From the NCBI GenBank assembly GCA_017526985.1, contig JAFXQR010000181.1, positions 1-35,076 on the forward strand: a DNA stretch of 35,076 nucleotides, given 5' to 3'. This document shows positions 7,996 to 24,343 of this stretch, piece after piece. The stretch is from Lachnospiraceae bacterium (lineage in GTDB: Bacteria > Bacillota > Clostridia > Lachnospirales > Lachnospiraceae). How positions within the stretch are numbered: position 1 is the stretch's first letter; each line of letters begins with the position of its first letter. A program made the translations under genes and the position numbers. The notes beneath the pieces are model-generated. The model had not been told where the DNA came from. It saw only the letters and a program-made list of their open reading frames with translations, and made no database searches.

Positions 7996-8043
7996 CGTCC
8001 CCCCCTTTACTCACTTCTGCGCATAACGCTTTCCCCATCGTTT

Positions 8044-8101: not shown

Positions 8102-8106
8102 TAAAA

Positions 8107-8304
8107 TCATTTGATGTCGATCTTTGGCGGTACATCGATGTCCTGCCCGACATACTTGCCATCCTTCTTTCGCTGCTTCACACACTCGGTCAACAGGTAT
8201 TCGATCTGCCCGTTGACCGATCGAAAATCATCTTCTGCCCAGGCAGCGATCGCATCGTACAGTTTTTCCGATAACCTTAAAGGTACCTGTTTCTTCTCTG
8301 CCAT
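8107..8304 (-). CDS. Small ribbon-helix-helix (Arc-like) DNA-binding protein
   Basis: This 65-residue protein starts MAEKKQVPLRLSEKLYDAI. The beta strand KQVPLRLS followed by two helices (EKLYDAIAAWAEDD and SVNGQIEYLLTECVKQRK) is the Arc/CopG/MetJ ribbon-helix-helix pattern, including the Ser-Val-Asn-Gly turn between the helices. ATG 8302-8304 is preferred over ATG 8308-8310 because GGGAG lies 9 bases before the former and only 3 before the latter. The gene lies 36 bases downstream of an SPFH gene and is probably co-transcribed. Ribbon-helix-helix proteins commonly repress their own operons through palindromes, and two palindromes cover the operon promoter at 9386-9417. Such self-regulation is inferred. 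It may alternatively act as an antitoxin-like protein, but no toxin is adjacent. Confidence 0.82.
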   Translation of the reverse strand: MAEKKQVPLRLSEKLYDAIAAWAEDDFRSVNGQIEYLLTECVKQRKKDGKYVGQDIDVPPKIDIK

Positions 8305-8340
8305 TAGCATTTACTCCCTTACTGTCTGCCGTTACTGCCA

Positions 8341-9476: not shown

Positions 9477-9503
9477 AAAAAACTCCGGTGGCTGGCCGGA
9501 GTT
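9477..9503 (-). terminator. Intrinsic terminator after the DUF4190-like gene
   Basis: The stem AACTCCGG / CCGGAGTT (9481-9488 with 9496-9503, 7-base loop) is followed on the minus strand by six T's (complement of 9477-9482), about 60 bases after the stop codon at 9564. It is the first clear terminator downstream of the exosortase G unit. Confidence 0.8.
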
Positions 9504-9563: not shown

Positions 9564-10037
9564 TTATGGCAATAGACGAGCAACAGTGCTCACAAACAAT
9601 CCGATGATCGAAATAATTAAGCCGATCGCCCCCATAACCATTCCGGCGATCGCATACGATCTTCCGCTCATATTATCATTGATCGATGCAATACCGAGCG
9701 CGATCGCTACCCAGCCGACCAGAAAGCCCAGCACCGGAACCCAGCCCCCGATCAGAAAACTGATGATCCCCACTACCATGGACGCCAGGGAAACACCCTG
9801 TCTGCCGGTCGTCGGCTGCGGTGTCTGCGGATCAAATATATTTGCCGCTTTGGGTGCAGTGGATGCCTCTCCGCTGTTCACCGGCTCCACCGGGCGCGGA
9901 ATAAAGAAATCGCCCATATTTCCCTGCTGCGACATATACGGATTCGACGCCTGCTGCGGTTCCTGTCCCTGCGGAATCTGCGTCGTATTTTCTGTATTCT
10001 TCATATTCTCATTGGATATCGGATTTTGCTCTATCAT
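9564..10037 (-). CDS. DUF4190-like small membrane protein
   Basis: This protein of about 157 residues starts MIEQNPISNENMKNTENT. The start ATG 10035-10037 is chosen because GAGGAG lies 6 bases upstream; the open frame continues further upstream without a better site. Residues 1-80 are a hydrophilic linker rich in Gln, Asn and Pro. The C-terminal part has two hydrophobic hairpins (VSLASMVVGIISFLIGGWV... and SYAIAGMVMGAIGLIISII), separated by the ALGIASIND segment typical of DUF4190 proteins. The function is unknown. It lies 49 bases downstream of the MORN/TPR gene, probably in the same transcript, and is the last gene before the terminator at 9477-9503. Confidence 0.78.
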   Translation of the reverse strand: MIEQNPISNENMKNTENTTQIPQGQEPQQASNPYMSQQGNMGDFFIPRPVEPVNSGEASTAPKAANIFDPQTPQPTTGRQGVSLASMVVGIISFLIGGWVPVLGFLVGWVAIALGIASINDNMSGRSYAIAGMVMGAIGLIISIIGLFVSTVARLLP

Positions 10038-10086
10038 ATGTATCTCCTCATCCTTTTCGATTTGTATAAAGTCCGGAAGAGTCTTT

Positions 10087-11244
10087 TTAGCGATATCCCA
10101 AAGCCCCAAGAAGATCCGTGTAGCGATAGTAAGATTCGTAGGTGTAGTCATCATAGATCACATAGATGGTCGCATCGGCGTACATCTGACTATATTCGTA
10201 TTCATCGTGTAAGATTTCTTTGTAATAATCTACTTTATTGCCGGCGGCCAGATCCGCTTCCACTTCGTTGTAGATCTGCTCCAGTTCATCGGTAGCTTCG
10301 ACCGGTCGGCCGTAATTCACATAGTATTCGCCGCTATGGATCACATTGTGATTATTGGCGTCCTCGATCCGAATGGTAAAATCTCCATCTTCCAGTCCGT
10401 CCTTAAAATTACCGGTACGATAAACCGAATTATTATAGGAATAGACCAGCGCAGAGGTTCCGTATCCGTTCGGCGCATCATCCTTCCACTCGCCATCATA
10501 GATCTCGTAACCGCTGCCATTGTACCAATAGGAAACCCCATGGCCGCTACGCTCGCCATCCACAAAGTCACCATAGTAAAAGAAATAACCGCTGGATACC
10601 TGATATATGCCACAACCGGTACCCGTACCGTGACTGCCTTCCTCCGGGATGTAGATCACATGATCCCCTTTCAGTTCCTCGATCACCAGATCTGCTTCAT
10701 CCGAACCATCCACACTGCACATCCCGTCATAGTCCTGTTTCGAAAGCAGCTCATATGCTTTTTCCAGCAAAGCGACCTGCCGCTGTCGTGCCGTTTCGCC
10801 CTGTCCGAGATTTTCATCCGGTGCATTACCGGTACCACTTCCGCCGGTGATCACCGGACCAATGGATTCCCGCAGTGCTTCTGCGCGTTCTTCCAGTGAT
10901 TCATCCCCGGTCTTTTCATACCCCTTCTCCAGCATATGCAGAGCTGCATCATCGTCTCCCTGCCGCTGATAAGCATCTACGATACCCTCATACGCTTTAA
11001 TATTATTCGGGTTCTGCTGCAACGCTTCGCGATAAGCAGCAATGGCCATCACATAGTTTTTCTCTGCCAGATATTTGTCGCCACGCTCCAACGGCGACCC
11101 GAGATTTTGAGGCATGCTCGCGATCAGAAATGCCGCGCCTACCGTCAAAACGATCAGTGCTGCCAGAAATGCCACGATCGTTACATATGTTTTTACCTGC
11201 GGTTTGTCCTGTACAGACGCCCCCGCCATCTGCATGTTATCCAT
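10087..11244 (-). CDS. Membrane-anchored TPR plus MORN-repeat protein
   Basis: This 385-residue protein has a short cytoplasmic N-terminus, one transmembrane helix (about 21-44, TYVTIVAFLAALIVLTVGAA) and an external region. Two or three TPR units follow (about 52-125), for example AIAAYREALQQNPNNIKAYEGI. After a Gly/Thr linker come MORN-type repeats (about 215-300), with YGDFVDGERSGHGVSYW, YDGEWKDDAPNGYGT and RTGNFKDGLEDGDF. The C-terminus is acidic and Tyr-rich. ATG 11242-11244 follows GGAGGGG. It begins 43 bases after the lipoprotein gene with no terminator between, so it may belong to the exosortase G transcript. TPR and MORN repeats mediate protein or membrane contacts; no enzymatic motif is seen. 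Confidence 0.82.
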   Translation of the reverse strand: MDNMQMAGASVQDKPQVKTYVTIVAFLAALIVLTVGAAFLIASMPQNLGSPLERGDKYLAEKNYVMAIAAYREALQQNPNNIKAYEGIVDAYQRQGDDDAALHMLEKGYEKTGDESLEERAEALRESIGPVITGGSGTGNAPDENLGQGETARQRQVALLEKAYELLSKQDYDGMCSVDGSDEADLVIEELKGDHVIYIPEEGSHGTGTGCGIYQVSSGYFFYYGDFVDGERSGHGVSYWYNGSGYEIYDGEWKDDAPNGYGTSALVYSYNNSVYRTGNFKDGLEDGDFTIRIEDANNHNVIHSGEYYVNYGRPVEATDELEQIYNEVEADLAAGNKVDYYKEILHDEYEYSQMYADATIYVIYDDYTYESYYRYTDLLGALGYR

Positions 11245-11287
11245 CGTTTTCCCCTCCGAAAACTGATATCATGGTGTGATCGATCAA

Positions 11288-13468
11288 CTATTCCGCCGGG
11301 ATCTTCAGGTCTCCGAAACACCCCTGCAGGATCCAGTACGAATCCTTCAGGCGCTCCGTAAATTCCACATGGTCCCAGTCAGCCCAGGTGTATGATACCA
11401 TATTTATCTGATCTTTTCCACAACGAACTCCCAACCAGATCTCCGAGATGTCCCTGCCGCACAATTCACCACGCTGCCAGAAGTCATCCTCGATCTCCTT
11501 GCTGCTGGGATCCCGGAAATTCAGCATCTCCCAAGGGATGCGCAGCTCCAGGCAATGCTCCCCATAACACAGATCCGCCAGGGAATCGTAGGCTTCGTCA
11601 TCCGGCACGCCCACACCGATCCGCAGCAGCCCGGTATCGTATTTCAGTGCATCAAAAGTCTCACCGGTTTCCGGCTGCGTAAATGCTTTGTTCAAGGAAA
11701 GCAGAATCGGGCCAAAGTTTTCATTAGACGGGTCATCATATCCCGTCACATCCAGCAGGTTATCGTATTTCTGATAGAAAAACGCATAACGGTCATAATA
11801 CTGATGCACATAGATATGGCTTTCCGTCTCCTCCTCCATACCATTCAGCTCTGCCACAAAATCCACCGGCCGTTCAAAGGTCTGGTCTTTATAATGCTGC
11901 GCCCCGGACAGTGGTGTGATATCAAACGGGATCAGCACTTGTTCTTTTGCCGGATCGTGTGCATCTGCTTCTACCGCCAGCCAAAGATAACGCGCATCCG
12001 TTGCCGCATACAGCTTCAGTCCGTCTTCTTCCGCGATGAGCTCGTTCTCCCGCCATTCTGTCAGTTCCCCGTCCAGGCGGTGTCTTCCGTCCCCCGGTAC
12101 AAATTCCAGCAGACCGAAATTCTGCTCGGATGTCTGCAGATCGTTCCAGAACGCACGCCGATCCGGATCCGTATAGTCCATGGTATTCCAGGTACGCTTG
12201 AACCATTCATCCTGCCATGCAAAGACCAGTCCGCCTGCATAACCGTTGTCATAGATATCCCGTGCCATGGCATCCAGACACCAGCCCTGCTCTGTCTCGG
12301 TATGTTTTCCCTGATCCAGTCCGGTGTATGGATTGATGTGTGTACAACCACGGGAAGACGGTACACCGAATTCCGCCACCAGCACCGGCATGGTGTGGAT
12401 GGCACGAAGTTCCTTCAGATAGGCCTCATAGGTATTGATCACACCGTCATTGTCATGATAGGTATTGTAATCCTCATCCAGATACATAAAGTCGGGATAG
12501 TACGGATATACATGATAGGACGCAAAGATGCCCGGTGCAAAACCGGCCTTGGTGTGAAAGCGCTCCACATTGATCGTGACCGCATCCTCCTTATCCGGTG
12601 CCGGTTCCGACGGATGATCCAGCGCATCCGCTGTGGGCCAGTTGGTCCAGCTGACGGGGCGCTGCATCTGATACTGATCCGTTTCGTATTTGATCACTTC
12701 ATCCCCAAGTTCGCAAAGAAATGCATCGAATGCCTGAATATCCTCGCCCTGCGTATACAGATACTCTCCGTCATAGCTATGGATGTCCGGATGCAGATCA
12801 TTGGTTGTTCCCACCAGATAGGCATCCGACTCGATCCCCAGGATCCAGCCCAGGACATACTCCGACACATCTCTGGTATAAACACCGTGCGCACGTCCGG
12901 GGCGCTCATCGATCTCACAGTTTCCATGAATGATGTCGATCTGTTCCTTTGCTTCCGAGACTGCACCTTTCAGCAGATCATAGGCATCCCCGGTCTGCTC
13001 GATCATTTCTTCGTCATACCATACCCCCATCAGCAGATATAATTTGTGATCCGCATCTGCTGTGTAGTTGTAGGTATAAAACGCATTGTAAAAAGACGGC
13101 ATCATGGTCGTATAGATACGGATCGTGTTGCAGTTCATCTCCGAGATCTCGTGAAACCAGCGCAGATAGGTTTCCTCCGGGATCGCCAATTCTCCCGGAT
13201 AATAGCCCGGATAGCCCGACCCGATATTGACACCGTTCAAATAGACCGGCTGAAACTCCGCGCCGTCATAGATTTCCAGATATTGCTCCCCGCAGCGGAA
13301 GGCATAATCCACTCCGGTCTGTGTATCGTGATCCAGCGCCTGCTCCGGCCCCGGAGTCAGTTCCGCACTGCCCTGCTCTTCCGGCACCATCCAGGGTGCG
13401 GTGCATCCCGCAAGAAATGCGCCTGTGATCACAGCCGTTATCATTTTGCAAAAGTGTTTTCCTCTCAC
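11288..13468 (-). CDS. Lipoprotein with glycosidase-like TIM barrel and CBM9/DOMON-like C-terminal module
   Basis: This protein of about 726 residues likely starts at GTG 13466-13468, which overlaps the previous gene's TGA as GTGA. AAGGAG lies about 11 bases upstream, and this start gives a compact lipoprotein signal (MRGKHFCK, hydrophobic core, lipobox LAGC). The region from about 50 to 450 resembles a (beta/alpha)8 glycosidase: YLNGVNIGSGYPGYYPGE, NCNTIRIYTTMMPSFYNAF, GWILGIESD at the usual acid/base position, and VLVAEFGVPSSRG with a Glu typical of a clan GH-A nucleophile. From about 465 a second module starts DGELTEW and ends LELRIPWEMLNF, a pattern like CBM9/DOMON domains. It is the last tightly coupled gene of the exosortase G unit. 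It should sit outside the membrane and act on, or bind, surface glycan. The substrate is unknown. Confidence 0.8.
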   Translation of the reverse strand: MRGKHFCKMITAVITGAFLAGCTAPWMVPEEQGSAELTPGPEQALDHDTQTGVDYAFRCGEQYLEIYDGAEFQPVYLNGVNIGSGYPGYYPGELAIPEETYLRWFHEISEMNCNTIRIYTTMMPSFYNAFYTYNYTADADHKLYLLMGVWYDEEMIEQTGDAYDLLKGAVSEAKEQIDIIHGNCEIDERPGRAHGVYTRDVSEYVLGWILGIESDAYLVGTTNDLHPDIHSYDGEYLYTQGEDIQAFDAFLCELGDEVIKYETDQYQMQRPVSWTNWPTADALDHPSEPAPDKEDAVTINVERFHTKAGFAPGIFASYHVYPYYPDFMYLDEDYNTYHDNDGVINTYEAYLKELRAIHTMPVLVAEFGVPSSRGCTHINPYTGLDQGKHTETEQGWCLDAMARDIYDNGYAGGLVFAWQDEWFKRTWNTMDYTDPDRRAFWNDLQTSEQNFGLLEFVPGDGRHRLDGELTEWRENELIAEEDGLKLYAATDARYLWLAVEADAHDPAKEQVLIPFDITPLSGAQHYKDQTFERPVDFVAELNGMEEETESHIYVHQYYDRYAFFYQKYDNLLDVTGYDDPSNENFGPILLSLNKAFTQPETGETFDALKYDTGLLRIGVGVPDDEAYDSLADLCYGEHCLELRIPWEMLNFRDPSSKEIEDDFWQRGELCGRDISEIWLGVRCGKDQINMVSYTWADWDHVEFTERLKDSYWILQGCFGDLKIPAE

Positions 13469-15942
13469 GCTTTCGCCCGCTCCTTTTCTTCCTGATATGC
13501 TCTCCACCTCCGGTCACATTTGCTTCCCAGGACAAAGGTCAAAAGCAGCAGCAACACACCGCCCAGGCTCATTGCCAGCCCGCCCGCAAAATATGGATGC
13601 CCAAAGTAGATCGTAGTATTTCCCGCATCCACATGCAGCAGCCGGTTGCGCTCCCAGGCATCCTCCGACAGTACAAAACTGCCCGGTACCGAAAGCGTGG
13701 TATCCACATCATTTTCTTCGGAACGGATCGTGATGCTGTCCTTACCATACGCCACATCCAGATCTACCACACGACGCTTCGGCATCTCTCCGATCTCCAT
13801 ACAAAAGATCTCATAGAGCAGATCCTCCAGGGAAGGATCCTTGGTCAGCGCGTAATGATAGGTCAGATTGATCGCCAGCACATAGATGTTCGGATCCCGC
13901 ACAGTACCGTAAAACGGCAGTTCCACACCATCTTCCGAAGTGTATCCCAGTACTTTATGCAGGCCCGTCACATATACCGTTCTCCATTGCGCATGCCCTG
14001 CCGCGAACAGATCCGTATTGATGATGCCGTAATTCTCTGTGATCAGTTCCGGATAGCCGTTGGAAAATACCACTTCCTGCGCATGCACACCCAGAAACTC
14101 CCTCGCCTTGGTGGTGGGATCCTGGGGTATACCGTCTGCCAGCAATACGATACGGGTACCGTTCTGCGCAAGCTTTAAGAGCATCGCTTCTGCCTCATAC
14201 TTGTCGCTGTAGGTAAAACCGTTTAAATACACCGTCTGGTACTGTGACAGCTCTTCATAAGTATAATCATTGATATTGGTGGAGGTCACTTCTTCCACCG
14301 TCGGGAAATCCAGTGAGATCTGTCCGGCACCGCTGCCGATGCCGATGGCACCGAAATCACTCACCACGCCGAAACGCCCCCGTACATCCCGGTGATACAG
14401 ACGATAGCGCTCATTTGCGTCTGCCAGATGATAGCCGGAGATCGCTGCTGCCGCATCCAACTCACCGATGGCCTCACTGTTCCAGTCCACATGTTTCAAC
14501 TGCAACAGCACGGAATCGTTCCCCAGTTCCAGCGTGCGGTCAAATAAGTATTTAAAGTTTCCGCCGGCATAGGCCCTATCCAGCTGTGTGATATTATAAG
14601 TGGTTGCCGCAGAAGCAATGTCCGAACCGTAACTGCCCATCAGCGGCACATCATAAACATTCACCATCCAGCTTCCGTCGGATTCCAGATCCCCCAGATC
14701 CAGCAGCGCCAGTCTCTGCTGTGTGATGGATTTGGCCGTATCCAGAAGCATCTCTTTTTCCTCATGCGCAAAACGCCGCTCTGCCGGGTCGCTGTCCATA
14801 TCCCCGGAAAAAAGCGGAAACGACGGGATACAGTCCAGAAGCAGCAGCGTACAGATGGTCACACGCACCTGCCATTTACAGCGTTTCCACGACGCGATGC
14901 CGTAGAGCAGCAGGCACATGGCCACCGGTACATACTGCAGCATATGCAGATACCGGTTGCCCGGAAAGATCTTTAATACCTGATAGGCACTGCGCGTCGT
15001 TGCAATGAATAATAACAGTCCTATGGAAAATGCCGGAATGCTTTTCTTATCCGAGCACAAAAGTCCGAAGATCAGAACCAGCACCGCTGACAGCCCGAAA
15101 TACGGCAGATACAGATCCACCTCTTTTCGCAGGAAAGGATTGATGGAACGAAAAGCACTGCTGAAGGCTTCCGACATGGTCTCTGCCAGATCCACCGGGA
15201 TCTGCCGGCCACACAGATACGGCAGGAGCCATAAGCCGGTCAGCAAAAAGACGCCCAGCATCATCAGGATCACCTGTGCCAGCCGGATCCAGCCGTGGTT
15301 CAGCTTTGCATAAACGATCAGATACAGCGTGAATGCGATGGATGTCATGACCGCCAGATCATGTTCCGTAAAGATCAGCAAAAGCAGCAGGACCGCCGCC
15401 AGCAGGAGCTGTCCTTTCTTTGCTTCATTCATATACTTTTCCAGAAAATACAGAAGGAGCGGCAACAGTATCAGACCGAAGGCACGCGCCAGATTACCCT
15501 CACCGTAGATCAGAAGAAGATTGCCCGGAAGCAGCATCCATAACGGCCCCAGCAGTGTCCCCGCCACCGGCTGTCCTTTTTTTGCAGTGACAAAGAAAAA
15601 GGAAAGCGCTCCCAGCCAGAAGACCAGACCGCTGTATAAAATATACGCACCGAAGGGATTGCCGGATGCCAGTCCTTCACACAAAGCCAGCACATAGGAA
15701 GACAACGGCGCCCAGAAACGAAGTGCCTCCGCACCGTTATACCACATCGGATCGTATGCCGGATACAGATCCCCCTGCACCACACTATGATAGATCAGAT
15801 CCGCTTTGTACAGATGCGTCATAACATCCGCTCCGGCCGGATACAGACCGCTGTGCGAGATCACCTGCATCAGGATCCACGCCAGCAAGCCATATCCCAC
15901 CACCACAAACAGCGGCCATATTTTTTTCATGGCTTCTTTCAA
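13465..15942 (-). CDS. Large multi-pass membrane protein, PTPS-related/GT-C glycosyltransferase-like
   Basis: This 825-residue protein probably starts at TTG 15940-15942, which overlaps the upstream TGA as TTGA. GGAGG lies about 10 bases upstream, whereas the next ATG (15930) is too far from it. The first about 380 residues contain about ten hydrophobic helices with an early loop GLYPAGADVMTHLYKADLI, resembling the Asp-containing first loop of GT-C enzymes that use lipid-linked sugars. An extracytoplasmic region (about 385-785) follows, with a flavodoxin-like stretch (TVYLNGFTYSDKYEA, then TRIVLLADGIPQD). One C-terminal helix (about 787-810) ends in a basic tail. It matches the membrane '6-pyruvoyl-tetrahydropterin synthase-related' family (PF10131 as I recall) seen near XrtG. 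A glycosyl transfer role is inferred. Confidence 0.8.
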   Translation of the reverse strand: MKEAMKKIWPLFVVVGYGLLAWILMQVISHSGLYPAGADVMTHLYKADLIYHSVVQGDLYPAYDPMWYNGAEALRFWAPLSSYVLALCEGLASGNPFGAYILYSGLVFWLGALSFFFVTAKKGQPVAGTLLGPLWMLLPGNLLLIYGEGNLARAFGLILLPLLLYFLEKYMNEAKKGQLLLAAVLLLLLIFTEHDLAVMTSIAFTLYLIVYAKLNHGWIRLAQVILMMLGVFLLTGLWLLPYLCGRQIPVDLAETMSEAFSSAFRSINPFLRKEVDLYLPYFGLSAVLVLIFGLLCSDKKSIPAFSIGLLLFIATTRSAYQVLKIFPGNRYLHMLQYVPVAMCLLLYGIASWKRCKWQVRVTICTLLLLDCIPSFPLFSGDMDSDPAERRFAHEEKEMLLDTAKSITQQRLALLDLGDLESDGSWMVNVYDVPLMGSYGSDIASAATTYNITQLDRAYAGGNFKYLFDRTLELGNDSVLLQLKHVDWNSEAIGELDAAAAISGYHLADANERYRLYHRDVRGRFGVVSDFGAIGIGSGAGQISLDFPTVEEVTSTNINDYTYEELSQYQTVYLNGFTYSDKYEAEAMLLKLAQNGTRIVLLADGIPQDPTTKAREFLGVHAQEVVFSNGYPELITENYGIINTDLFAAGHAQWRTVYVTGLHKVLGYTSEDGVELPFYGTVRDPNIYVLAINLTYHYALTKDPSLEDLLYEIFCMEIGEMPKRRVVDLDVAYGKDSITIRSEENDVDTTLSVPGSFVLSEDAWERNRLLHVDAGNTTIYFGHPYFAGGLAMSLGGVLLLLLTFVLGSKCDRRWRAYQEEKERAKA

Positions 15943-16418
15943 TTCTTCATATCCTCCAGGATATCATCCAGCACGGCGTCGATCACGGTCTTCTTGACCT
16001 CTTCGGTATAATTATCCAGTTCAAAACTGTCAAAAGCATCATTAAAACTGATGACATAGCTGCGCGTCGGGGTCTCGCTGCCCTCGATGGAAAGCACCCG
16101 TCCCCCGATCTGTTTCACCAGTTCCTGTGCCCGGATCCCGAAATATTCCACAAGATTTTCCAGTGTGGGCGTGATCGCGTCAAAGGGATCCACTTCATTC
16201 AGCACCTTGTTCTGATACGGCGCCAGCAGCTGTTCTATGGCGCGCTCATACTGGTTAAACTCCACAAAGGTCTCACGCCCTACCAGGATATTGAGCGTAA
16301 ACTCCCAGGTATGCGGATGTGTCTCGCCGCGCGTATTCCCAAACATCAGATAATGATTTCCGTTCAGATAAAACTTCAGGCGGTATTCATGAAAGAGTCG
16401 GTTTTCCAGATTTTTCAT
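15939..16418 (-). CDS. 6-pyruvoyl-tetrahydropterin synthase-like protein (XrtG-associated), copy 1
   Basis: This 159-residue cytosolic protein overlaps its upstream neighbour by ATGA. The tunnelling (T) fold of PTPS/QueD is suggested by an N-terminal strand with His22 (LNGNHYLMF) and the metal-binding pair HPH (H34, H36) in ETHPHTWEFTLNI. VLNEVDPFD, the helix signature TPTLENLVEYF and the late Glu segment IEGSETPTRSY also fit. The usual catalytic Cys preceding HGH is replaced (GNTRGETHPH), so normal 6-carboxytetrahydropterin synthase activity is doubtful. PTPS-related proteins are known partners of exosortase G in Gram-positive bacteria (TIGR03112, from memory). Its position between a membrane sensor-like protein and a GT-C-like protein suggests a service role in the surface pathway. 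Confidence 0.82.
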   Translation of the reverse strand: MKNLENRLFHEYRLKFYLNGNHYLMFGNTRGETHPHTWEFTLNILVGRETFVEFNQYERAIEQLLAPYQNKVLNEVDPFDAITPTLENLVEYFGIRAQELVKQIGGRVLSIEGSETPTRSYVISFNDAFDSFELDNYTEEVKKTVIDAVLDDILEDMKN

Positions 16419-17497
16419 TGATTCTTACTCCTCATATCCTGTAAAAATGCGTGAATATCCCCGCGATCCGGCTGCCATTCTTCCACGGTACGAACCGTTA
16501 CGGAAACATTGATCAACGGCCGCAGATGCGTAAATGCCTTTCTCTGGTCGCAGTTTAAAAATACCAGCAGGATCTGCCCGGATACCGCTGCATTGGTATA
16601 GGCCTGCTCTCCGGTCAGACGGAAACGCAACACGCTGCGGTCCAGCACCAGCTGCGCCTGCTCTAAGAAACTGCCCTCATTCGCACAGTTCAGCAGTGCA
16701 AAAGAGATGGGCCATACATTTTTGCGCACGATACGATCCAAAAAATCTGCGAGCATGCTTTCCTGGAATAAGGTCCTGCGCATATCATAGGTTGATTTGA
16801 CCAGCAGTTTATCATTCAGTTTCGCAATGCTGGAATTAAGATCCACCATCATAGCGTCTTTGTCATTGATCTCGTCGCGCAGTTTGCCGATCCGGTGGGC
16901 AAAGAGCATGGCTCCGACCGCCAGCACTACGATGGCCAGCGCATAACAGAGCGAAATATTGATGCGTCCGCCCAGAAATGCGTTGTTATCCAAAAACACT
17001 TCTTCATTGGAAAGCAGACACAGGCGGTATTCCGCGCCGTTGTATTCAAAGATCACACCACTGGCCACATACTTTCTGTCTTCAATGGTAATGCGCCCGT
17101 GGGTGACGGAATTGAGACTCAATTCTTTCAAAAACTCCGATGCGCTGTCGGAAATGTAATAGGTTGCTGTCGTAAAACCCTTGTATTTATTCGTCTCCGT
17201 AACATCCTTTACAAAGAGCATGGTCTCTTCCTTGGAAAAGGTCCAGTACTTGTTGGTGGACGCATCCAGACTGCCCAGGATCTCTTCAATGATAGAAGCG
17301 TCCGAGCGGTTGTTACGGATATAGATCTGATCCAGCACCAGCTGCACATAGGCATCCTGCTGCTCCGCACATACCTCCAGCACACCTTCCTCATACTGGT
17401 CCATAAAACGCCAGAACATAAACAGCAGGATAAGTCCGGTCAGGCAGGCCCCCACCGCTACGGTTCCGAAATAATGTTTTCTGATCCACGCTTTCAT
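16415..17497 (-). CDS. Two-helix membrane protein with extracytoplasmic domain and degenerate GGDEF-like domain
   Basis: This 360-residue protein starts at ATG 17495-17497, overlapping the glycosyltransferase stop as ATGA. Helix 1 (about 10-31) is followed by an external domain (about 32-178) with a PAS/dCache-like pattern (FTTATYYISDSASEF, then KYVASGVIFEYNGAEYRL). Helix 2 spans about 183-203. A short coiled-coil region (KLRDEINDKDAMMVDLNSSI) leads into a domain that resembles a GGDEF fold: SFALLNCANEGSF in place of the 'D.D.FK..ND' strand, QILLVFLNCD in place of GGDEFLILLP, and INVSVTVRTVEEW in place of the 'vTvSiGva' strand. No GGDEF motif or metal-binding Asp is visible, so it should not make c-di-GMP. 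It may bind a ligand or act as a structural partner. Confidence 0.74.
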   Translation of the reverse strand: MKAWIRKHYFGTVAVGACLTGLILLFMFWRFMDQYEEGVLEVCAEQQDAYVQLVLDQIYIRNNRSDASIIEEILGSLDASTNKYWTFSKEETMLFVKDVTETNKYKGFTTATYYISDSASEFLKELSLNSVTHGRITIEDRKYVASGVIFEYNGAEYRLCLLSNEEVFLDNNAFLGGRINISLCYALAIVVLAVGAMLFAHRIGKLRDEINDKDAMMVDLNSSIAKLNDKLLVKSTYDMRRTLFQESMLADFLDRIVRKNVWPISFALLNCANEGSFLEQAQLVLDRSVLRFRLTGEQAYTNAAVSGQILLVFLNCDQRKAFTHLRPLINVSVTVRTVEEWQPDRGDIHAFLQDMRSKNQ

Positions 17498-18873
17498 GCT
17501 TTTTCCTTCTCCTCAGGGTTGTTGACCCATTCCCGTAATTGTTTCAGCCATCCCGCCGGCTTGGACAGATCCTCCTTCACCACCGCGGCAAAAGCCTGCC
17601 CCTCTTCCGTTAAGTTTCTCGTCTTCCATGCACTGTCTGTTCCGATACTGTTGACGATACCGGCCAGCCGGATGAAGAATACCGCAAAGTTAAAGAACGG
17701 CAACAAGATGACTACCCACCAGTGCCCGGCATAATAACTCTTCAGATCCGGGAACTCCCGGAAGAAATACAACACGGTCGCAAAATACATAAATCCGACG
17801 ATGATGTAGGTCAGGAAAATAAAGGCCGTCGACAGGATGATCATCTTGGACGAATAATTCATAAACAGCAGGCACAAAAGCGCCAGATACCAGATGGCAC
17901 GCGGGAACGCAAAGGTATGGTCATACAACAGTGTATGGACATTGACATCCAGGAAACTGCGGCCGAAGTCATTCTTATCATTCAAAAACTGCTTGGCTAC
18001 CTCCAGACTGCCTCGCTGCCAGCGCTGTCTCTGGGTATAGAGCTTATTGATGCCTTCAATGGGATCCACATAGAACAACGCATTCTCACAGATTTCCACC
18101 CGCTCCTTTTGCAGATAGCGCATCTGGAAGGTGATGTGGGTATCTTCACAGATCGTATTGGTATTGTACATACGGGATTTGAGGATCGCGGATTTCCGGA
18201 ATGCGGAAAACGCACCGGATAGCGTATACACTTTGTTCAGCTCCGATGCATAACTGCGCCCTGCCAGAAATGCCTGCGCATACTCCATAAACTCTAGCTC
18301 CCGCAGCAGTCTCGGGAAGAAATGTTCAAACTGGTCGATGAGCCGCGGCTCCGTGAGTACCGCACCGGTCATACAGTTTAAGTCCTGTCTGGTCTCAAAT
18401 TTATCCACCAGATTCTGCAATGCGTGCGGCTCCAGGATACCGTCGCTATCCAGATTGATGATGTACTTGCCTTCACTGTTGTACAGCGCCAGGTTTAATG
18501 CACGGGATTTGCCCTGCTGCGCATTCAGCCACTGCATGTGTAGTTCCGGAAACGCCAGCTGGCAGCGCTGGAAGATCTCAAAACTGTTATCCTTGCCCTG
18601 ATTGTTGACCAAAAAGATCCGGATCTTGTCGGGATCGTAGGTGCTGAGTTTGATCGAACGGATGCAGGCAAATAGCGTTTGCGCAGAGTTGTAGACCGGG
18701 ATGATGATGGAGATCTCCGGATAAACCTTTGGCTTATCCAAACGATGCCCCGCCTTGGCCCTGCGGATCAGCAGCAGAAAAAAACCGCCGATCGCCGGTA
18801 CGATCTCCATCAGGACCGGGATAATGATCCACGCGCCCCAGAATATGAAGGAATGTAAGAATCTGTTCAGCAT
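17494..18873 (-). CDS. Exosortase G-associated family 2 glycosyltransferase (TIGR03111-like)
   Basis: This 459-residue processive-type glycosyltransferase has an N-terminal helix (about 10-36). The GT-A catalytic domain runs from about 52, with EISIIIPVYNSAQTL, the nucleotide-metal DxD (D142, D144 in NLDSDG), the acceptor-site ED (243-244, CEDTH) and the QxxRW motif (Q281 to W285, QRQRW). C-terminal membrane helices follow (about 330-360, 365-375, 388-412). This architecture is shared with cellulose/hyaluronan-type synthases and with the glycosyltransferase that accompanies XrtG. ATG 18871-18873 follows GGAAGGGAAG, 21 bases after xrtG. It likely polymerises or transfers a sugar from a nucleotide donor at the cytoplasmic face. 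The sugar is unknown. Confidence 0.92.
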   Translation of the reverse strand: MLNRFLHSFIFWGAWIIIPVLMEIVPAIGGFFLLLIRRAKAGHRLDKPKVYPEISIIIPVYNSAQTLFACIRSIKLSTYDPDKIRIFLVNNQGKDNSFEIFQRCQLAFPELHMQWLNAQQGKSRALNLALYNSEGKYIINLDSDGILEPHALQNLVDKFETRQDLNCMTGAVLTEPRLIDQFEHFFPRLLRELEFMEYAQAFLAGRSYASELNKVYTLSGAFSAFRKSAILKSRMYNTNTICEDTHITFQMRYLQKERVEICENALFYVDPIEGINKLYTQRQRWQRGSLEVAKQFLNDKNDFGRSFLDVNVHTLLYDHTFAFPRAIWYLALLCLLFMNYSSKMIILSTAFIFLTYIIVGFMYFATVLYFFREFPDLKSYYAGHWWVVILLPFFNFAVFFIRLAGIVNSIGTDSAWKTRNLTEEGQAFAAVVKEDLSKPAGWLKQLREWVNNPEEKEKA

Positions 18874-18894
18874 ATGTTACTTCCCTTCCGCAAC

Positions 18895-19482
18895 TCAATC
18901 ATATTTAAAAGTCCCCACCCGCATCTTGATGATGTGCGGTTTCGTAAATACATAAAAGTACAAAAGCACCGACAGCACATAGAAGAAAATACGCCCGATA
19001 TAGGTATGTGCCATAAAATAGTAGCCGCTGCCGCCAAAATGGATGATCTCACAGATCAGCACGATGCGCATAGCGTTGGCGATCAGGATATAGAATATAC
19101 CGAGCAGTGCGACCAGGATCTTTTCCTGCAGATTATAGATGTCAAAGAAGACCAGCAGTGCCAGATAAGCCATGATCTCCAAGATGCCGGAACATTCCAT
19201 ATCGATCTGCAGTGTCATAGGGCCGGACGGCGTATACACAAAGATCGTACCGTACTTAAAATACGGGGTAAAGGTACCGGTGGCCCTGCCGAAGAATCCG
19301 GCCAACGCGGAAACGCCCTGTGCCAGCGGCTGCGTCAGCACAGGACGTACAAATACCATCATCAGAATAAACAATCCTGCACCGCCCCAGAAAAAACGCC
19401 ATGCCGGCAATTTTGCCTTGGACATCACATGCAACACATACAACCAAACAGCGGTTGCCAGGATCCCGATGAGCCACAGCAT
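18895..19482 (-). CDS. xrtG: Exosortase family protein XrtG
   Basis: This 195-residue integral membrane protein has about six hydrophobic helices. The three catalytic residues of the exosortase/archaeosortase superfamily are all visible: Cys97 in DMECSGILEI, Arg139 in IANAMRIVLI, and His159 in FMAHTYIGRIFF. The length and the FVYTPSGPMTLQID segment fit the Gram-positive exosortase G family (TIGR03110, from memory). Exosortases recognise a C-terminal sorting tail on exported proteins, cleave it, and are thought to join the protein to a surface molecule. The start ATG directly follows the cargo gene's TAA (TAAATG), with AAGGTGAT inside the cargo coding end. The upstream cargo gene and downstream glycosyltransferase complete the core of the system. 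Confidence 0.93.
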   Translation of the reverse strand: MLWLIGILATAVWLYVLHVMSKAKLPAWRFFWGGAGLFILMMVFVRPVLTQPLAQGVSALAGFFGRATGTFTPYFKYGTIFVYTPSGPMTLQIDMECSGILEIMAYLALLVFFDIYNLQEKILVALLGIFYILIANAMRIVLICEIIHFGGSGYYFMAHTYIGRIFFYVLSVLLYFYVFTKPHIIKMRVGTFKYD

Positions 19483-21312
19483 TTAGATCACCTTCTTGCG
19501 GCGCTGCAGGACCACTGCGGAACCTGCCACCGCCATGCTGAGCAGGATGCCTGCTACCGGACCGGTAGAAGCACCTGCGGTCTGCAGCCATTTATCACCA
19601 ATACGCTCGTATCTTACCTCCAGTACCTGCATATCGGTCTCTTCCAGGCCAAAATGCTCTGCGATCAGTCCCAGATCCAGCTTCCATTCCGCCTCATCCG
19701 AGATGTCACCCTTGGTGATACGCATACGGCCGTATACATGATTTCCTTCATCGATCTCTTCCAGCGTCTGCGCACTGGACCAGCCTCTGGTATCTACGAT
19801 ATAGTACTCATGCGTACCGTTTTCCTGATCTGCTACATTTACATTCCAGTTGATCCGCCCGTTCTCATCCACATCGATCAGACGGAATTCAAACCACAGA
19901 TTATTATCCTGGTTGATGCGCAGCACCACGCCGTACTGCATTTCTTCTCCATGCTCGGTCAGGTGCGCATTCATACGGGTCACCACATGGCCATACAAGG
20001 TACCGCCGGTGGAATACAGCGCACCCTCGCCGTCAACATATTTCTCCCAGGTACCGGAGGTCGCATAGTGGATCAGGGTGTGCGGATAGGTACTCCAGTC
20101 ACCGTACAAGCCGTCAAAGATAATGAGCTCATCCTCCTGGCCTTCTCCGTTACCTTCCCCGTTTGTATTGCCGGTCACATCATCCTTTTCCCGCTGGTCT
20201 GCCACTTCCCCGATGAACGGGTCAGCCTGGTAATAACCAAACGCAAAAGTTCCGCGGCTGTTCGGCAGTTCCGAGACCGGAATGGCGATCTCCCATTCAC
20301 CGCTGTAGCCCCAGCCCTTCGTATAATAAGCGCACTCTGCACCATTCACGCCGGAAATGCTCACATGCGCACCGTTATCCGTTGCATGCAGCTGGAACAA
20401 TACGGAATAGCCCAGATCCGTCACCAAAGAAAACTGGCCGTTTCCGTGCGGGCCGGACCAAGACGCCGCACCGATCCCGGTATCCCGGATATACACATAA
20501 ATATAATCGCCATCCTGGAACACCGCGCATGCTTCCAGGAAATCCTGATATTCTGTCGAACCTCCGGCATCCGTTTTGGCGACACCGTCCCAATCAGAAA
20601 ACTTACCGTCGATCACGATCCCGTCATATACGGCTTCTTCTTCCTGCTCTTCCTCTTTGTCCTCTTCTGCCATTTCCTTGACCGGCAAAGCATCCAGATC
20701 CAGATTCAACTCGATCGCATTCGGATCCGAAACCGTCACGTCTTCCGACAACTCTGCTGCATTCGGATCCGAAACCGTCACATCTTCCGGCAACTCTGCT
20801 GCATTCGGATCTGAAACCGTCGCATCCTCCGATAACCCATTGGTTTCTTCTGCATTTTCCGCAGCCTGCCCCTCTTCTGCCGCTTCTTCGGATACCGGTT
20901 CTTCCTCTGTGGTCTCCGTTACATCCGTTGCCGCTTCTTCCGCAGGATTCTCTTCATTTGCAGTTGCGCCGGATCCCTCTGTCTCTTTAGACTCTTCCGC
21001 AGACGCTTCTGTAGTGCTTTCTTCTATAGTGCTTTCTTCTGTAGTGTTTTCTTCTGTAGCGCTTTCTTCTGCGTTTTCCGTTACCGGCTCTTCCGCAGTC
21101 GTTTCCCCTGTATTCTCCCCGGAAGTCTCCTCCGAAGTCACCTCAGCCGTTTCCTCTGTTGATCCTTCGGTCACTTCCTCCTCTTCCGGTGCCGCCAGCG
21201 CAAAACTGCCGGCCGGCGCGGATACAGAAAAAGCCAGCGTTGCCGTAAGCATCGCCAGCCATTTTTTCGCGCACTTCTGAAACACCTTTTTTTCTACATA
21301 TAATCTCTTCAT
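19483..21312 (-). CDS. Exported exosortase G cargo protein with Firmicu-CTERM-like sorting tail
   Basis: This protein of about 609 residues starts MKRLYVEKKVFQK (ATG 21310-21312, GAGGAG 9 bases upstream). A signal peptide ends near residue 40 (SFALA-AP). Residues about 43-205 are a highly acidic, Thr/Ser/Glu-rich stalk including three 14-residue repeats (DVTVSDPNAAELSE). A CBM9/DOMON-like module follows (about 220-375), from DGKFSDWDG to EWEIAIPVSEL. A second, related region (about 385-570) starts IIFDGLYGDWSTYPH. The C-terminus is tripartite: STGPVAG, a hydrophobic helix (ILLSMAVAGSAVVL) and basic RRKK, as expected for an exosortase or sortase-like sorting signal. It lacks LPxTG. Adjacency to xrtG makes it the natural substrate. 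The 140-base gap upstream holds a T8 run but no clear hairpin. Confidence 0.88.
   Translation of the reverse strand: MKRLYVEKKVFQKCAKKWLAMLTATLAFSVSAPAGSFALAAPEEEEVTEGSTEETAEVTSEETSGENTGETTAEEPVTENAEESATEENTTEESTIEESTTEASAEESKETEGSGATANEENPAEEAATDVTETTEEEPVSEEAAEEGQAAENAEETNGLSEDATVSDPNAAELPEDVTVSDPNAAELSEDVTVSDPNAIELNLDLDALPVKEMAEEDKEEEQEEEAVYDGIVIDGKFSDWDGVAKTDAGGSTEYQDFLEACAVFQDGDYIYVYIRDTGIGAASWSGPHGNGQFSLVTDLGYSVLFQLHATDNGAHVSISGVNGAECAYYTKGWGYSGEWEIAIPVSELPNSRGTFAFGYYQADPFIGEVADQREKDDVTGNTNGEGNGEGQEDELIIFDGLYGDWSTYPHTLIHYATSGTWEKYVDGEGALYSTGGTLYGHVVTRMNAHLTEHGEEMQYGVVLRINQDNNLWFEFRLIDVDENGRINWNVNVADQENGTHEYYIVDTRGWSSAQTLEEIDEGNHVYGRMRITKGDISDEAEWKLDLGLIAEHFGLEETDMQVLEVRYERIGDKWLQTAGASTGPVAGILLSMAVAGSAVVLQRRKKVI
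20718..20832 (-). repeat. Three tandem 42-base repeats in the cargo stalk
   Basis: Copies begin at 20718, 20760 and 20802 (plus-strand coordinates), exactly 42 bases apart, each reading CATTCGGATCYGAAACCGTC at its start. They encode the 14-residue unit D-[VA]-T-V-S-D-P-N-A-[AI]-E-L with small changes. Near-identical DNA suggests recent expansion, a site where stalk length could vary between strains. Confidence 0.85.
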
Positions 21313-21452
21313 GCTTCCATGCTCCTCATCATGCCTTGCACACACGCACGCCCCCTCGCGTTCGTTGTTTTATTTGTGCCCCCTCAAGCACGCGCATCCT
21401 TCCCTGGACACGCTCCCATAAAAAAAACCTCTATTCTATATATCGGACCGTT

Positions 21453-21896
21453 TTATAAATAAGTTGATACTACATACACACGTAATGGATTTTCCCCGAT
21501 CTCCAGCCGCTCCAGAAAGAGCTGTTCCTTCAACAGATGATCACTCATCAGGTTGTAGAGTACATCCCCCACATGTTCAATACTGGCATCGCCTTCCAGT
21601 TCCTTCAGGTCATTTAAGTACTTTCCTTCGTATTGTTTCAGAAAAGCGGATGCATACTTTTCGATTTCGCCGAATTTCTCCCGGCTTCTGGTCTGCATCC
21701 CGTCCGCCGAACGGCTTTGAATATCATCCTGTTCAAAACCGGACAACAGCCGGATGTAAGTCGTGATCTCCAGCGTATGCGAATGCCTGTGCTCGACCAC
21801 ATTATCCACACTGTGCGTGATCGGTATAAAATAACGGAAGCAATACCGGTCATCCAGTTCCTGCTGCTTTTGACCTTTTCTTGCTGTCTCTGCCAT
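21453..21896 (-). CDS. 6-pyruvoyl-tetrahydropterin synthase-like protein, copy 2
   Basis: This protein of about 147 residues likely starts at ATG 21894-21896 (MAETARKGQKQQ), with GGGAGG just upstream; a GTG one codon earlier is possible. The T-fold pattern is visible: FRYFIPITHSV with His28, then EHRHSHTLEITTYI where H38 and H40 occupy the HxH metal site. YLNDLKEL, a helix (SIEHVGDVLYNLM) and LEIGENPLRVYVVS at the conserved Glu strand follow. As in the second copy at 15939-16418, the catalytic Cys expected before HGH is absent (VVEHRHSH). It heads the exosortase G unit behind a TATAAT promoter. The two copies are strongly divergent and may have distinct roles or form a hetero-oligomer. The product has no signal peptide. 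Confidence 0.76.
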   Translation of the reverse strand: MAETARKGQKQQELDDRYCFRYFIPITHSVDNVVEHRHSHTLEITTYIRLLSGFEQDDIQSRSADGMQTRSREKFGEIEKYASAFLKQYEGKYLNDLKELEGDASIEHVGDVLYNLMSDHLLKEQLFLERLEIGENPLRVYVVSTYL

Positions 21897-21997: not shown

Positions 21998-22026
21998 AAA
22001 AAGGGCGTTTCCTTACCGAAACGCCC
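21998..22026 (-). terminator. Intrinsic terminator of the GH3/GH5/GGDEF unit
   Basis: The stem GGGCGTTTC / GAAACGCCC (22003-22011 with 22018-22026, 6-base loop) is followed on the minus strand by TTTTT (complement of 21998-22002). It lies about 43 bases after the GH3 stop and upstream of the exosortase G promoter, so the two units are transcriptionally separate. Confidence 0.87.
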
Positions 22027-22068
22027 CTTCCAAATACACAGAATGATTTGAATCTCTCTTAAAAAAGT

Positions 22069-24321
22069 TTATTTTAATGTAACTTCTTTTATGGCCCGGA
22101 TATCCCTGCTGGAAGCGCCGATGCAGATGACCATCTTTCCTTTCATCTGCTGCCAGTCGTTTGCTTCATTACTGAAGTGTGAAAAGTCTTTTGCCGTCAG
22201 TGTGAAGCTTACCGTCTTTTCTTCCCCCGGCGCCAGCTCCACTTTGTCAAAGCCCTTCAGTTCCTTGACGGGATTGGCCTCCGATACTTCTTTTTCACCG
22301 ACATAGAGCTGTACCGCTTCTTTTCCGCTGACATGGCCGGTGTTCTTCACCTTAATGCTCACGGTATAGAGCGCATCCTTCTCTTTTGCCTTTTCCACCT
22401 TCATACCGCTGTATCTGTATTCCGTATAGGACAGGCCGTAACCGAACTCGTACTGTACCGGCACATTGAATTTTTCATAGAAGCGATAGCCCACAAACAC
22501 ACCATCCTTAAAGGTCTGGGTCAGGTTCGCGTTCATCTTTTTCTTTTCCGCTGATGTCAGCTTGCGTCCCGGATAATCCCCAAAAACTGCTGCCGATGTC
22601 TTCCTGAAATCCGAAGGCAGGGATTCCGGCAGTTTTCCGCTGGGATTGATCGTACCGCTGATCACTTCCGCCAGCGCCGTACCGCCTTCCATGCCATTGT
22701 ATGCCATCCAGAGGATTGCCTGGGCTTTGTCACTCCATGCCGTCATATCCACCGGGCTGCCGGCAAACATGACCACCACCGCACGGGGATTGACTGCCAG
22801 TACCGCATTGATCAGCTCGTCCTGCGCATAGGGCAGTTTCAGATCCTTACGGTCCATCCCCTCGGTATCATAGTTATGATCCAGACCGCCGACGATCACC
22901 ACTTCTTCATATTCTTTTGCCAGGCGTACCGCTTCTTCCCGGTATGCTTTGATCTTCTTTTTCTCTTCCGCAGCCACCTTGCGTTTATCCCGTACGGAAG
23001 GATCCGACATCACTTCCGCGGAAACACTGTCTTCCTGCCAGCTGGTATCTTCTTTTGCTTTCTTCGGTACATAATAGCCCGGCGTGAAACGCACTTCCGT
23101 ATTACCGCCGTATTCCCTGGTCAGTCCCATCAGAGGTGTCACTTCATACAGTGCCTTGATCTCGCCGCTGCCGCCGCCATTGGATTGTTTCATATCCGCA
23201 TTGTTTCCGATCACCAGCAGGCGCCTTGTCTGTGACGGCTTGATGGGCAGGCGTTTCTTCTCATTCTTCAGCATGATCACAGCCTCTCTGGCCGTTTCTT
23301 TTGCCAGATGATGCATGATGTCGCCGTTATAATAGCCCGGATCACGATCCGCTACCGGTACGGCCTTTGCAGCAGCCTTACCGTTCTTCTTTTCCGTCAG
23401 CTCGATCTCGATCATACGCACACGCAGCATAAAGCGCAGGATGTTACGCACTTTTTTATCCAGGTCTTCCTCTTTGACCTCGCCCTTCTTTACGGCTTCC
23501 AGCACCGGATTGGCCAGACAATATTCATCAAAATTCCGGAACACGCTCATCTCCAGATCCAGACCGCTCTCCGCAGCCGCTTTGGTATCATGGACAGCCC
23601 CCCAGTCGGAAACCACCAGACCGTCGTATTTCCATTCCTTGCGCAAAATATCCGTGAGCAGGAATTTGCTCTGGCTGCCATGCTCCCCGCGCACCAGATT
23701 GTAGGATCCCATCAGTGCCATGGTCTTTGCGCGCTTGACCGCCGCTTCAAAGCCCGGCAGGTAGATCTCCCGCAGAGTGCGCTCATCCAGTTCCACATTC
23801 ACCCACAGTCTCTCCCATTCCTGAGCATTGCAGGCAAAGTGCTTCACGCAGGCCGACACATCGTTTTCCTGGATCCCTTCGATCAGCGGCACTACCATCT
23901 CCGCGATCAGATACGGATCCTCGCTCATATACTCAAAATTGCGTCCGCATAAGGGATTGCGCTTGATATTGATGCCCGGCGCCAGGATCATATCCTTGCC
24001 GCGGCCTCTGGCTTCCCGTCCCAGCACCCTGCCGGAATCATAAGCCAGTTCCCGGTTCCAGGTCGATGCGATCGCGGTATTGCAGGGCAGATAGCTCACC
24101 GCATCTGCCGAGGTGCCCACCGGATGCCAGTCTGCCGGGTGAAAATCGTTGCGCACACCCATAGGGCCGTCCGAGGTTGTGATCTTGGGAATGCCCAGAC
24201 GCGGCACATCCCCGGAGCGGAAAAACTCGGACGCATGGATCATCCGCACCTTTTCTTCTAAGGTCAGCTCCTGCAGCAGAGTTTCGATCTTTTTTTCGGT
24301 ATCTTTTTTATTACCCCGCAT
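22069..24321 (-). CDS. Glycoside hydrolase family 3 beta-glucosidase-like enzyme (cytosolic)
   Basis: This protein of about 750 residues starts MRGNKKDTEKKIETLL. ATG 24319-24321 is chosen because AGGAGG lies 7 bases upstream. It has the three-part GH3 layout: an N-terminal TIM barrel with TTSDGPMGVRN and the KHFA motif, with the nucleophile Asp near residue 239 in GLVVSDWGAVH; an alpha/beta sandwich (IGNNADMKQSNGGGSGE, VVMFAGSPVDM); and a C-terminal fibronectin-III-like domain (VSIKVKNTGHVSGKEAVQLY). No signal peptide is present, so it probably acts on imported oligosaccharides. It follows GH5 after a 78-base gap containing a REP-like hairpin. Together they could degrade beta-linked glucooligosaccharides. 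Exact specificity (gluco-, xylo- or other) cannot be fixed by reading. Confidence 0.93.
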   Translation of the reverse strand: MRGNKKDTEKKIETLLQELTLEEKVRMIHASEFFRSGDVPRLGIPKITTSDGPMGVRNDFHPADWHPVGTSADAVSYLPCNTAIASTWNRELAYDSGRVLGREARGRGKDMILAPGINIKRNPLCGRNFEYMSEDPYLIAEMVVPLIEGIQENDVSACVKHFACNAQEWERLWVNVELDERTLREIYLPGFEAAVKRAKTMALMGSYNLVRGEHGSQSKFLLTDILRKEWKYDGLVVSDWGAVHDTKAAAESGLDLEMSVFRNFDEYCLANPVLEAVKKGEVKEEDLDKKVRNILRFMLRVRMIEIELTEKKNGKAAAKAVPVADRDPGYYNGDIMHHLAKETAREAVIMLKNEKKRLPIKPSQTRRLLVIGNNADMKQSNGGGSGEIKALYEVTPLMGLTREYGGNTEVRFTPGYYVPKKAKEDTSWQEDSVSAEVMSDPSVRDKRKVAAEEKKKIKAYREEAVRLAKEYEEVVIVGGLDHNYDTEGMDRKDLKLPYAQDELINAVLAVNPRAVVVMFAGSPVDMTAWSDKAQAILWMAYNGMEGGTALAEVISGTINPSGKLPESLPSDFRKTSAAVFGDYPGRKLTSAEKKKMNANLTQTFKDGVFVGYRFYEKFNVPVQYEFGYGLSYTEYRYSGMKVEKAKEKDALYTVSIKVKNTGHVSGKEAVQLYVGEKEVSEANPVKELKGFDKVELAPGEEKTVSFTLTAKDFSHFSNEANDWQQMKGKMVICIGASSRDIRAIKEVTLK

Positions 24322-24343
24322 GAAATATCCTCCTAAACATTTC

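Follow-up and report, generated by a model that had tools for sequence, protein, structure and literature searches.

The 35,076-nucleotide contig JAFXQR010000181.1 from a Lachnospiraceae bacterium (assembly GCA_017526985.1), the whole of which is referred to here as the window, carries on its minus strand a run of eight co-directional genes (21896-11288) that includes the gene for the exosortase XrtG; all eight open reading frames (ORFs) lie at the places and on the strand given in an earlier sequence-only reading of this DNA. In the direction of transcription, the run starts with a small PTPS-like protein (PTPS1, P0001; 21453..21896; TIGR03112, 69.7 bits; also PF01242), followed by an exported protein, hereinafter the cargo (P0002; 19483..21312, with the ATG start at 21312 in an ORF of 19483-21345), which comprises an acidic linker and a C-terminal Firmicu-CTERM domain (TIGR04145, 105 bits) and ends in a sorting tail (19486..19578) made of the motif AGASTGP at residue 590, a hydrophobic helix, and a basic end. 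Next come XrtG (exosortase G; 18895..19482; TIGR03110, 175.7 bits) and a membrane glycosyltransferase of family 2 (GT2; 17494..18873; TIGR03111, 595.9 bits) with the motifs DSD, ED, and QRQRW. These are followed by a sensor-like protein of about 360 amino acids that belongs to no named family and, by hydropathy, consists of two transmembrane (TM) segments enclosing an outer domain, followed by a C-terminal domain (P0005; 16415..17497), a second PTPS-like protein (PTPS2, P0006; 15939..16418; TIGR03112, 116.5 bits), and an 825-amino acid membrane protein with many TM segments, hereinafter the PF10131 protein (13465..15930, with an alternative TTG start at 15942; PF10131, 373.7 bits). The last gene encodes a lipoprotein (P0008; 11288..13468) with a lipobox (LAGC, read by eye) and a glycosidase-like part.

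The models TIGR03110, TIGR03111, TIGR03112 (with both PTPS-like proteins), and TIGR04145 all score above their curated cut-offs in the window (102.75, 363.95, 69.35, and 50 bits, respectively), in agreement with the recognition of XrtG, GT2, and PTPS as a known association in the sequence-only reading; as TIGR04145 exceeds its cut-off, the cargo is an already named protein as well. The unit is thus a strongly conserved example of the XrtG/Firmicu-CTERM association, which reportedly goes back to Haft et al. in 2012. New here are the extended core, the gene fusions, and a relative of XrtG that lacks the Cys and is fused to the substrate, all described below.

From the cargo to the PF10131 gene, successive gaps are 0, 21, -4, -4, and 8 nucleotides, that is, the genes abut or overlap, and the gap between the PF10131 and lipoprotein genes is -4 nucleotides if the lipoprotein starts with the GTG at 13468. 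The gap between PTPS1 and the cargo is longer (140 nucleotides) and contains a T-run, so that an internal transcription start or stop is not excluded at this point. Two hairpins with T-runs on the same strand were read by eye, one between a GH3-family gene and the unit (about 21998..22029), likely the end of the upstream transcript, and the other at 9477..9503, likely the end of the transcript of the unit. A pattern scan for terminators lists neither of them; with 29 promoter-like sites in the window against 18.2 expected, and 19 terminator-like sites against 12.8, such a scan cannot decide the operon borders. An antisense ORF of 646 amino acids (18874-20814, plus strand) overlies XrtG and much of the cargo. 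Greedy ORF picking masked both genes behind this ORF in the window and behind similar antisense ORFs in some other loci; the locus counts given here therefore use all ORFs.

In a 200-genome sample from the same family (with the genome of the window designated G000), TIGR03110, TIGR03111, and TIGR03112 exceed their cut-offs in the same 14 genomes and in none of the other 186 (Fisher 8e-22), a co-occurrence far above chance that bears out the glycan-type unit around XrtG proposed from sequence alone. TIGR04145 was searched for in the XrtG genomes and matches a cargo at the XrtG locus in all 14, in G078 below the cut-off; a second match outside the XrtG locus, a weak one, was found in a single genome (G066). 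A scan of named genomes yielded 332 relatives; the 80 with the highest GT2 similarity were kept as loci (81 with the window); 54 of these are complete, with at least 5.5 kb before and at least 7.5 kb after GT2, and the other 26, with short flanks, were set aside. Every one of the 54 complete loci carries six core genes on one strand, namely those for the cargo, XrtG, GT2, the sensor-like protein, a PTPS-like protein, and the PF10131 protein, so these genes do occur together in other XrtG genomes; three gene orders were observed (in 37, 16, and 1 loci). Clustered by GT2 identity, the complete loci fall into 37 groups at 90% and 17 groups at 70%, and because the loci were the best 80 of 332, the 54/54 count applies to close kin. 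The upstream PTPS (33/54) and the lipoprotein (19/54, and one more on the opposite strand) are optional members. Thus, the cargo, the second PTPS, and the lipoprotein, all taken in the sequence-only reading as extensions of the described core, differ in status: the cargo is the partner already named as Firmicu-CTERM, and the lipoprotein comes and goes. The six core genes are also present on a 627-kb plasmid of [Eubacterium] eligens ATCC 27750, and a shorter version of the unit lies on the 44-kb plasmid pBV60 of Lactococcus lactis, in the order PAS-GGDEF, EAL, Firmicu-CTERM, xrtG, GT2, PTPS, and a TIGR03766 glycosyltransferase; both are annotated as XrtG systems.

The residues Cys97, Arg139, and His159 of XrtG, pointed out in the sequence-only reading, are indeed present, and the Cys/Arg/His triad is found in 97/100 XrtG rows (not dereplicated), the three exceptions being fusions with the cargo. 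The Pfam family PF09721 misses the XrtG of the window, though it matches the fused XrtG of locus L127. No LPXTG sortase motif was found in the cargo, the tail of which starts with AGASTGP; the tail consensus is A-G-[TA]-S-[TS]-G-[PA], with G-x-[SP]-[STA] in 76 of the 77 cargos and AG[AT][SP][ST]G in 63. The 77th is that of L127 (8137-10008), where cargo and XrtG form one ORF that keeps the Cys and in which the sorting helix runs directly into the first helix of XrtG, either a real fusion or an assembly deletion.

Outside the family, we distinguish three designs. In design (i), a separate tailed cargo accompanies an XrtG with the motif ECSG (L043, L168, L169, L170, L171, L172, and L166 from L. 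lactis). In design (ii), a tailed cargo domain forms the C-terminal end of the PF10131 protein, again together with an ECSG XrtG (four genomes; L040, L045, L046, and L176). These two designs account for all 11 loci (11/11) outside the family in which a tailed cargo was paired with ECSG; L177, a broken design (ii) locus, agrees in that tail and ECSG are both present. In design (iii), the cargo domain is fused to the front of XrtG, the tail is missing, and ECSG is replaced by ENSG, in 9/9 ORFs from eight genomes. XrtG ORFs without a cargo domain have ECSG in 11/11 cases, a count that leaves aside L026, a marginal match (31 bits) with no ExSG motif; the class search of G276 comprised four genomes. 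The fused domain of design (iii) shows 37-42% identity to separate cargos (E-values down to 2e-46) and 28-37% to those borne by PF10131 proteins. The Arg is kept in all nine Cys-less ORFs and the His in eight, the ORF of L137 ending before it. The joint disappearance of tail and Cys supports the roles of the tail as the substrate and of the Cys as the nucleophile. We tentatively suggest, at somewhat less than even odds, that the design (iii) lineage has a pseudo-exosortase fused to its own substrate which, having lost both tail and catalytic Cys, would serve as a permanent anchor. In the Aneurinibacillus locus L167, a secreted protein with a hydrophobic, basic tail is encoded beside an ECSG XrtG (7772-8422); it matches neither the cargo profiles nor any Pfam family and was left out of the 11 loci, and it may be another type of cargo.

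The GT2 motifs DSD, ED, and QRQRW do not vary among 14 aligned rows, and hydropathy places TM segments on both sides of them, as in a processive GT2 synthase. The protein is related to PgaC and cellulose synthase; among solved structures, cellulose synthase aligns at profile positions 47-360 (E-value 4e-6), and the best match is another family 2 enzyme (1e-15). In 15 of the 80 loci, as detected with a profile built here, GT2 is extended by a second domain, some 490 residues long (one of these loci, L078, is cut by a contig end). The two fusions tested have the Sulfatase fold in this domain, with 169 and 182 bits for NF009027 and 140 and 171 bits for NF003000, scores below the respective cut-offs (572 and 574); LtaS reaches only 41-44 bits, and structure 3lxq is matched with an E-value of 1.5e-14. 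In these two, the second domain is thus closest to phosphoglycerol transferase I, so the GT2 product probably receives phosphoglycerol in those species. Phosphoglycerol transferase I has matches in 5 of 22 XrtG genomes, two of them strong, and none in the window's genome; we accordingly did not extend phosphoglycerol decoration to the glycan of the window.

The PF10131 protein is probably GT-C-like; one of its relatives matches GT-C_AftD weakly, below the cut-off. Locus L034 (5660-6721) encodes a protein resembling a polyprenyl-phosphate sugar synthase (GT2 plus GtrA), the cluster of which is represented in 11 loci; a protein of this type possibly makes the donor for the PF10131 protein.

The alignment of 29 PTPS-like proteins contains nine invariant columns, including H22, H34, H36, E115, P117, and R119. 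Of the two solved relatives compared, 2dj6 aligns at HxH and 2g64 at HxH as well as at the Glu of EETP, whereas the DHRNL of these structures aligns to a sequence of the YQNKVLN type. We take the conserved His to be of the zinc-binding type, the Glu to be of the ligand-binding type, and the Asp-His pair to be catalytic. By this token, PTPS2 keeps three His and the Glu but not the catalytic pair, which is present in 0/29 rows, with single members of it in L059 (Asp) and L075 (His). A PTPS is fused to the front half of the sensor-like protein in L027, L030, and L101, which ties one PTPS to this protein, and to the front of the PF10131 protein in ten loci. As the zinc- and ligand-type residues are kept and the catalytic pair is absent, both PTPS folds probably are non-enzymatic regulatory or ligand-binding modules that would act in the cell with two membrane partners, the sensor-like protein and the PF10131 protein.

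The sensor-like protein has no NCBIfam match, its Pfam matches are at chance level, and its best match among solved structures is a designed protein (E-value 0.014). In the XrtG-less genomes, matches to this protein do not exceed 29.3 bits. Its description as a degenerate GGDEF protein in the sequence-only reading is not supported by Pfam, and profiles hint weakly in that direction: the 25 Pfam families shown for 62 relatives, out of 67 in all, do not include GGDEF, and the protein of the window contains no GGDEF motif and only a lone match of the RxxD type near the N-terminus, with no inhibitory-site RxxD. In a comparison of the C-terminal domain to 25 GGDEF domains taken from these loci, hhalign gave a probability of 6.8% (P = 0.005 for this single pair) over 81 colinear columns; for 46 other family profiles the probability is at most 3.0%, and two of them have higher raw scores than GGDEF. 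At the usual place of the sensor-like protein, between GT2 and PTPS, L031 (5608-8208) encodes a membrane protein of the YfhO family.

Several signs point to a glycosidase-like nature of the lipoprotein: GH113 is matched at 0.019 by the protein of the window and, at 5e-4 in the best case, by six of its 33 homologs, and GH72 by two of the 33; the GH2-type catalytic domain of structure 9fz9 gives an E-value of 2e-4, a weak match overall. E226 and E379, candidates for the two catalytic Glu of a retaining clan GH-A glycosidase, are kept in at least 90% of the 33 rows, and E379 aligns to a Glu of 9fz9 in whose place 9g4n has Ala. The gene is present in 18 of the 200 family genomes, 5/14 with XrtG and 13/186 without (Fisher 0.004); in G066 and G157, it lies on a contig other than that of XrtG, without a CotH-type operon. 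We read 12 loci (L147-L158) from the 13 XrtG-less genomes, leaving out G147. In 11 of the 12, the lipoprotein belongs to a different operon, the GT2 of which scores 193-234 bits with the profile of the XrtG-associated GT2; in L147, it lies beside a HEAT-GT2 protein of 984 amino acids (142 bits). Given its presence in GT2 operons of XrtG-less genomes, the lipoprotein is a glycosidase-like companion of GT2 synthases rather than an XrtG gene. The XrtG-less operon of L148-L158 (for example, L149, 4731-12347) is conserved and of the exopolysaccharide type, VTC-DUF4956-CotH-lipoprotein-HEAT-GT2; in L149, it adjoins a gene for a GGDEF-EAL protein. In L153, three opposite-strand ORFs interrupt the lipoprotein gene, leaving ORFs of 557 and 180 amino acids, an arrangement that resembles an insertion. 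Elsewhere in the window's genome (G000:C149:17345-17425), a stretch of 27 residues shares 78% identity with the lipoprotein's end. A sugar-binding domain common to cargo and lipoprotein, suggested by a DG-x-DW start seen by eye, was rejected (hhalign, 1.4%).

Drawing on the gene set, its co-occurrence, the motifs, the fusions, and the correlation between Cys and tail, we infer, with a probability of about 0.5, that the XrtG system is a single machine in the membrane, dedicated to synthesising a surface glycan and to maturing one protein that belongs to the system itself. The putative biochemical steps, including acceptor, sugar, and regulation, would be as follows. GT2 would build a sugar chain across the membrane, and the PF10131 protein would act on this chain at the outer face, using a lipid-linked sugar. 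The cargo, once exported, would be retained through its C-terminal tail; Cys97 of XrtG would attack the tail at AGASTG, forming an acyl-enzyme, and XrtG would then pass the cargo to an acceptor, either a lipid or the nascent glycan, the cleavage and transfer being modelled by analogy with archaeosortase A. The cargo would then function at the outer face, as a component close to the glycosyltransferases, instead of being distributed freely over the surface. One PTPS would serve the sensor-like protein and the other one the PF10131 protein, and the lipoprotein, where present, would trim or release the chain.

The mechanism proposed in the sequence-only reading differs in that XrtG would covalently join the cargo to the glycan of the unit, yielding a surface glycoprotein. 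The cargo, XrtG, and GT2 are always together in complete loci, and sortase-like chemistry is the model proposed for the family (PMC7157517, PMC4343526). However, designs (ii) and (iii) keep the cargo permanently with the PF10131 protein or with XrtG, and both types of fusion fit a membrane-kept cargo better than free display of a glycoprotein; an assembly role is therefore favoured over display, and we consider the joining of cargo to glycan doubtful. Another alternative, an exopolysaccharide synthase controlled by cyclic di-GMP (c-di-GMP), similar to the Listeria Pss or cellulose synthase, with the sensor-like protein as the receptor, would be in line with the kinship of GT2, with the best probability of the sensor C-terminal domain being that with GGDEF among the 47 profiles, and with the single case of pBV60, where Firmicu-CTERM-xrtG-GT2 comes immediately after the genes for an EAL protein and for a PAS-GGDEF protein whose motif is intact. 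Yet that best probability is low and two unrelated profiles exceed GGDEF in raw score, GGDEF is missing from the Pfam families shown for the 62 sensors and its motif from the protein of the window, and Rfam searches found no c-di-GMP riboswitch in the window, where they yield no riboswitch of any kind, or in six relatives (only tmRNA and TPP). True GGDEF genes are found in 13/80 loci at scattered distances and look like background, albeit with no formal background computed. We regard c-di-GMP control as unlikely.

The remaining alternatives concern individual components. That the PTPS-like proteins are enzymes making a pterin or a modified sugar for the glycosyltransferases is suggested by the fold and the retained zinc- and ligand-type residues, but the lack of the Asp-His pair in all aligned rows and the fusion of the domain to membrane partners in 13 ORFs make this very improbable. 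The entire run from 21.9 to 9.6 kb could also be a single operon with a TPR/MORN protein and a DUF4190-like protein as working parts, considering that all genes are on one strand, that the gaps are 43 and about 49 nucleotides, and that the next hairpin is only at 9503-9477. Although the sequence-only reading included these two genes, they are not conserved with the unit: TPR/MORN is present in 2/54 complete loci and in 4/81 loci overall (the window and three near kin), and no homolog of the DUF4190-like protein was found in the 80 loci. Both appear to lie outside the unit, and the single functional operon is very unlikely.

Several observations weigh against the membrane machine that we favour and its pseudo-exosortase variant. 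In a 38-row tree, all Cys-less rows group on a single branch (93/93 support), so the nine share one loss of the Cys; a second Cys at position +7 is present in all nine Cys-less XrtG and in five near Cys-bearing relatives, so the nucleophile may have moved; and the L127 fusion retains its Cys. The window itself has neither the cargo-XrtG nor the cargo-PF10131 fusion. No known fold was detected for the cargo domain by sequence and a carbohydrate-binding fold is unsupported, so that any sugar binding by the cargo is conjectural. Finally, of the 14 XrtG genomes, eight have a full-length match to the sensor-like protein, three a partial one, and three none, and this protein was not found in the XrtG loci read outside the family.

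Compared with the XrtG/Firmicu-CTERM system as named, with which the window shares all four models, the unit described here adds the sensor-like protein, often a second PTPS, and sometimes the glycosidase-like lipoprotein, and has a PF10131 protein where L. lactis has TIGR03766; its relatives also show the fusions of GT2 with a phosphoglycerol transferase and of the cargo with XrtG. Our literature search found no functional study of XrtG; the available part of PMC12854382 reports transcripts only, with a complete XrtG system over-expressed, as judged by raised XrtG transcript levels, in some strains of L. plantarum. Archaeosortase A, which acts on PGF-CTERM proteins, is likewise a Cys/Arg/His membrane enzyme recognising a tripartite C-terminal signal; the published model, called speculative by its authors, involves a thioester at Cys-173 and passage of the substrate to a lipid (PMC7157517). 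In contrast to that system, for which the same text describes pss lipid genes, XrtG has one dedicated cargo and adjoins glycosyltransferases. The exosortase A/PEP-CTERM system of Gram-negative exopolysaccharide loci also places an exosortase beside polysaccharide genes (PMC1569441), but the XrtG of the window scores only 21 bits with XrtA (cut-off, 208), and there is one cargo per genome in our sample.

Osmoregulated glucan synthesis by OpgH and OpgB is a further comparison. The fusion of GT2 to a domain resembling phosphoglycerol transferase I recalls it, whereas the sub-threshold scores of this domain and its absence from the window's genome set the two apart. The Listeria Pss (PMC4125290) and L. 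acidophilus Gts (PMC6123363) systems similarly combine a BcsA/PgaC-like GT2 with regulators, but no c-di-GMP receptor is demonstrated for the XrtG unit; Gts is presented as a different, BcsA-like exopolysaccharide operon, and exosortases are mentioned zero times in the available portion of that article.

The surroundings of the unit in the window are as follows. Directly upstream is the GH3-family gene (22069-24351, minus strand), found in 9/81 loci (the window counted among them) and 8/54 complete loci. A few genes upstream of the unit, a Peripla_BP_3-GGDEF protein is encoded (25441-27312, minus strand; RYGGDE; GGDEF, 104 bits), with related ORFs in L049, L050, and L092. Downstream of the hairpin at 9503-9477 lies an SPFH/Band 7 gene (8341-9342, minus strand; 3/81 loci), preceded by a promoter-like site at 9437-9409 in the pattern scan.

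The fusions make a named but unexplained association testable, in that they suggest which residue goes with which tail and which PTPS with which partner. The product of GT2 may be a phosphoglycerol acceptor in some species. If the pseudo-exosortase of design (iii) is indeed a permanent anchor, the task of active XrtG would be to keep a single extracytoplasmic subunit in place at a glycan synthase in the membrane, and this action would belong to the assembly of that synthase and not to protein display.

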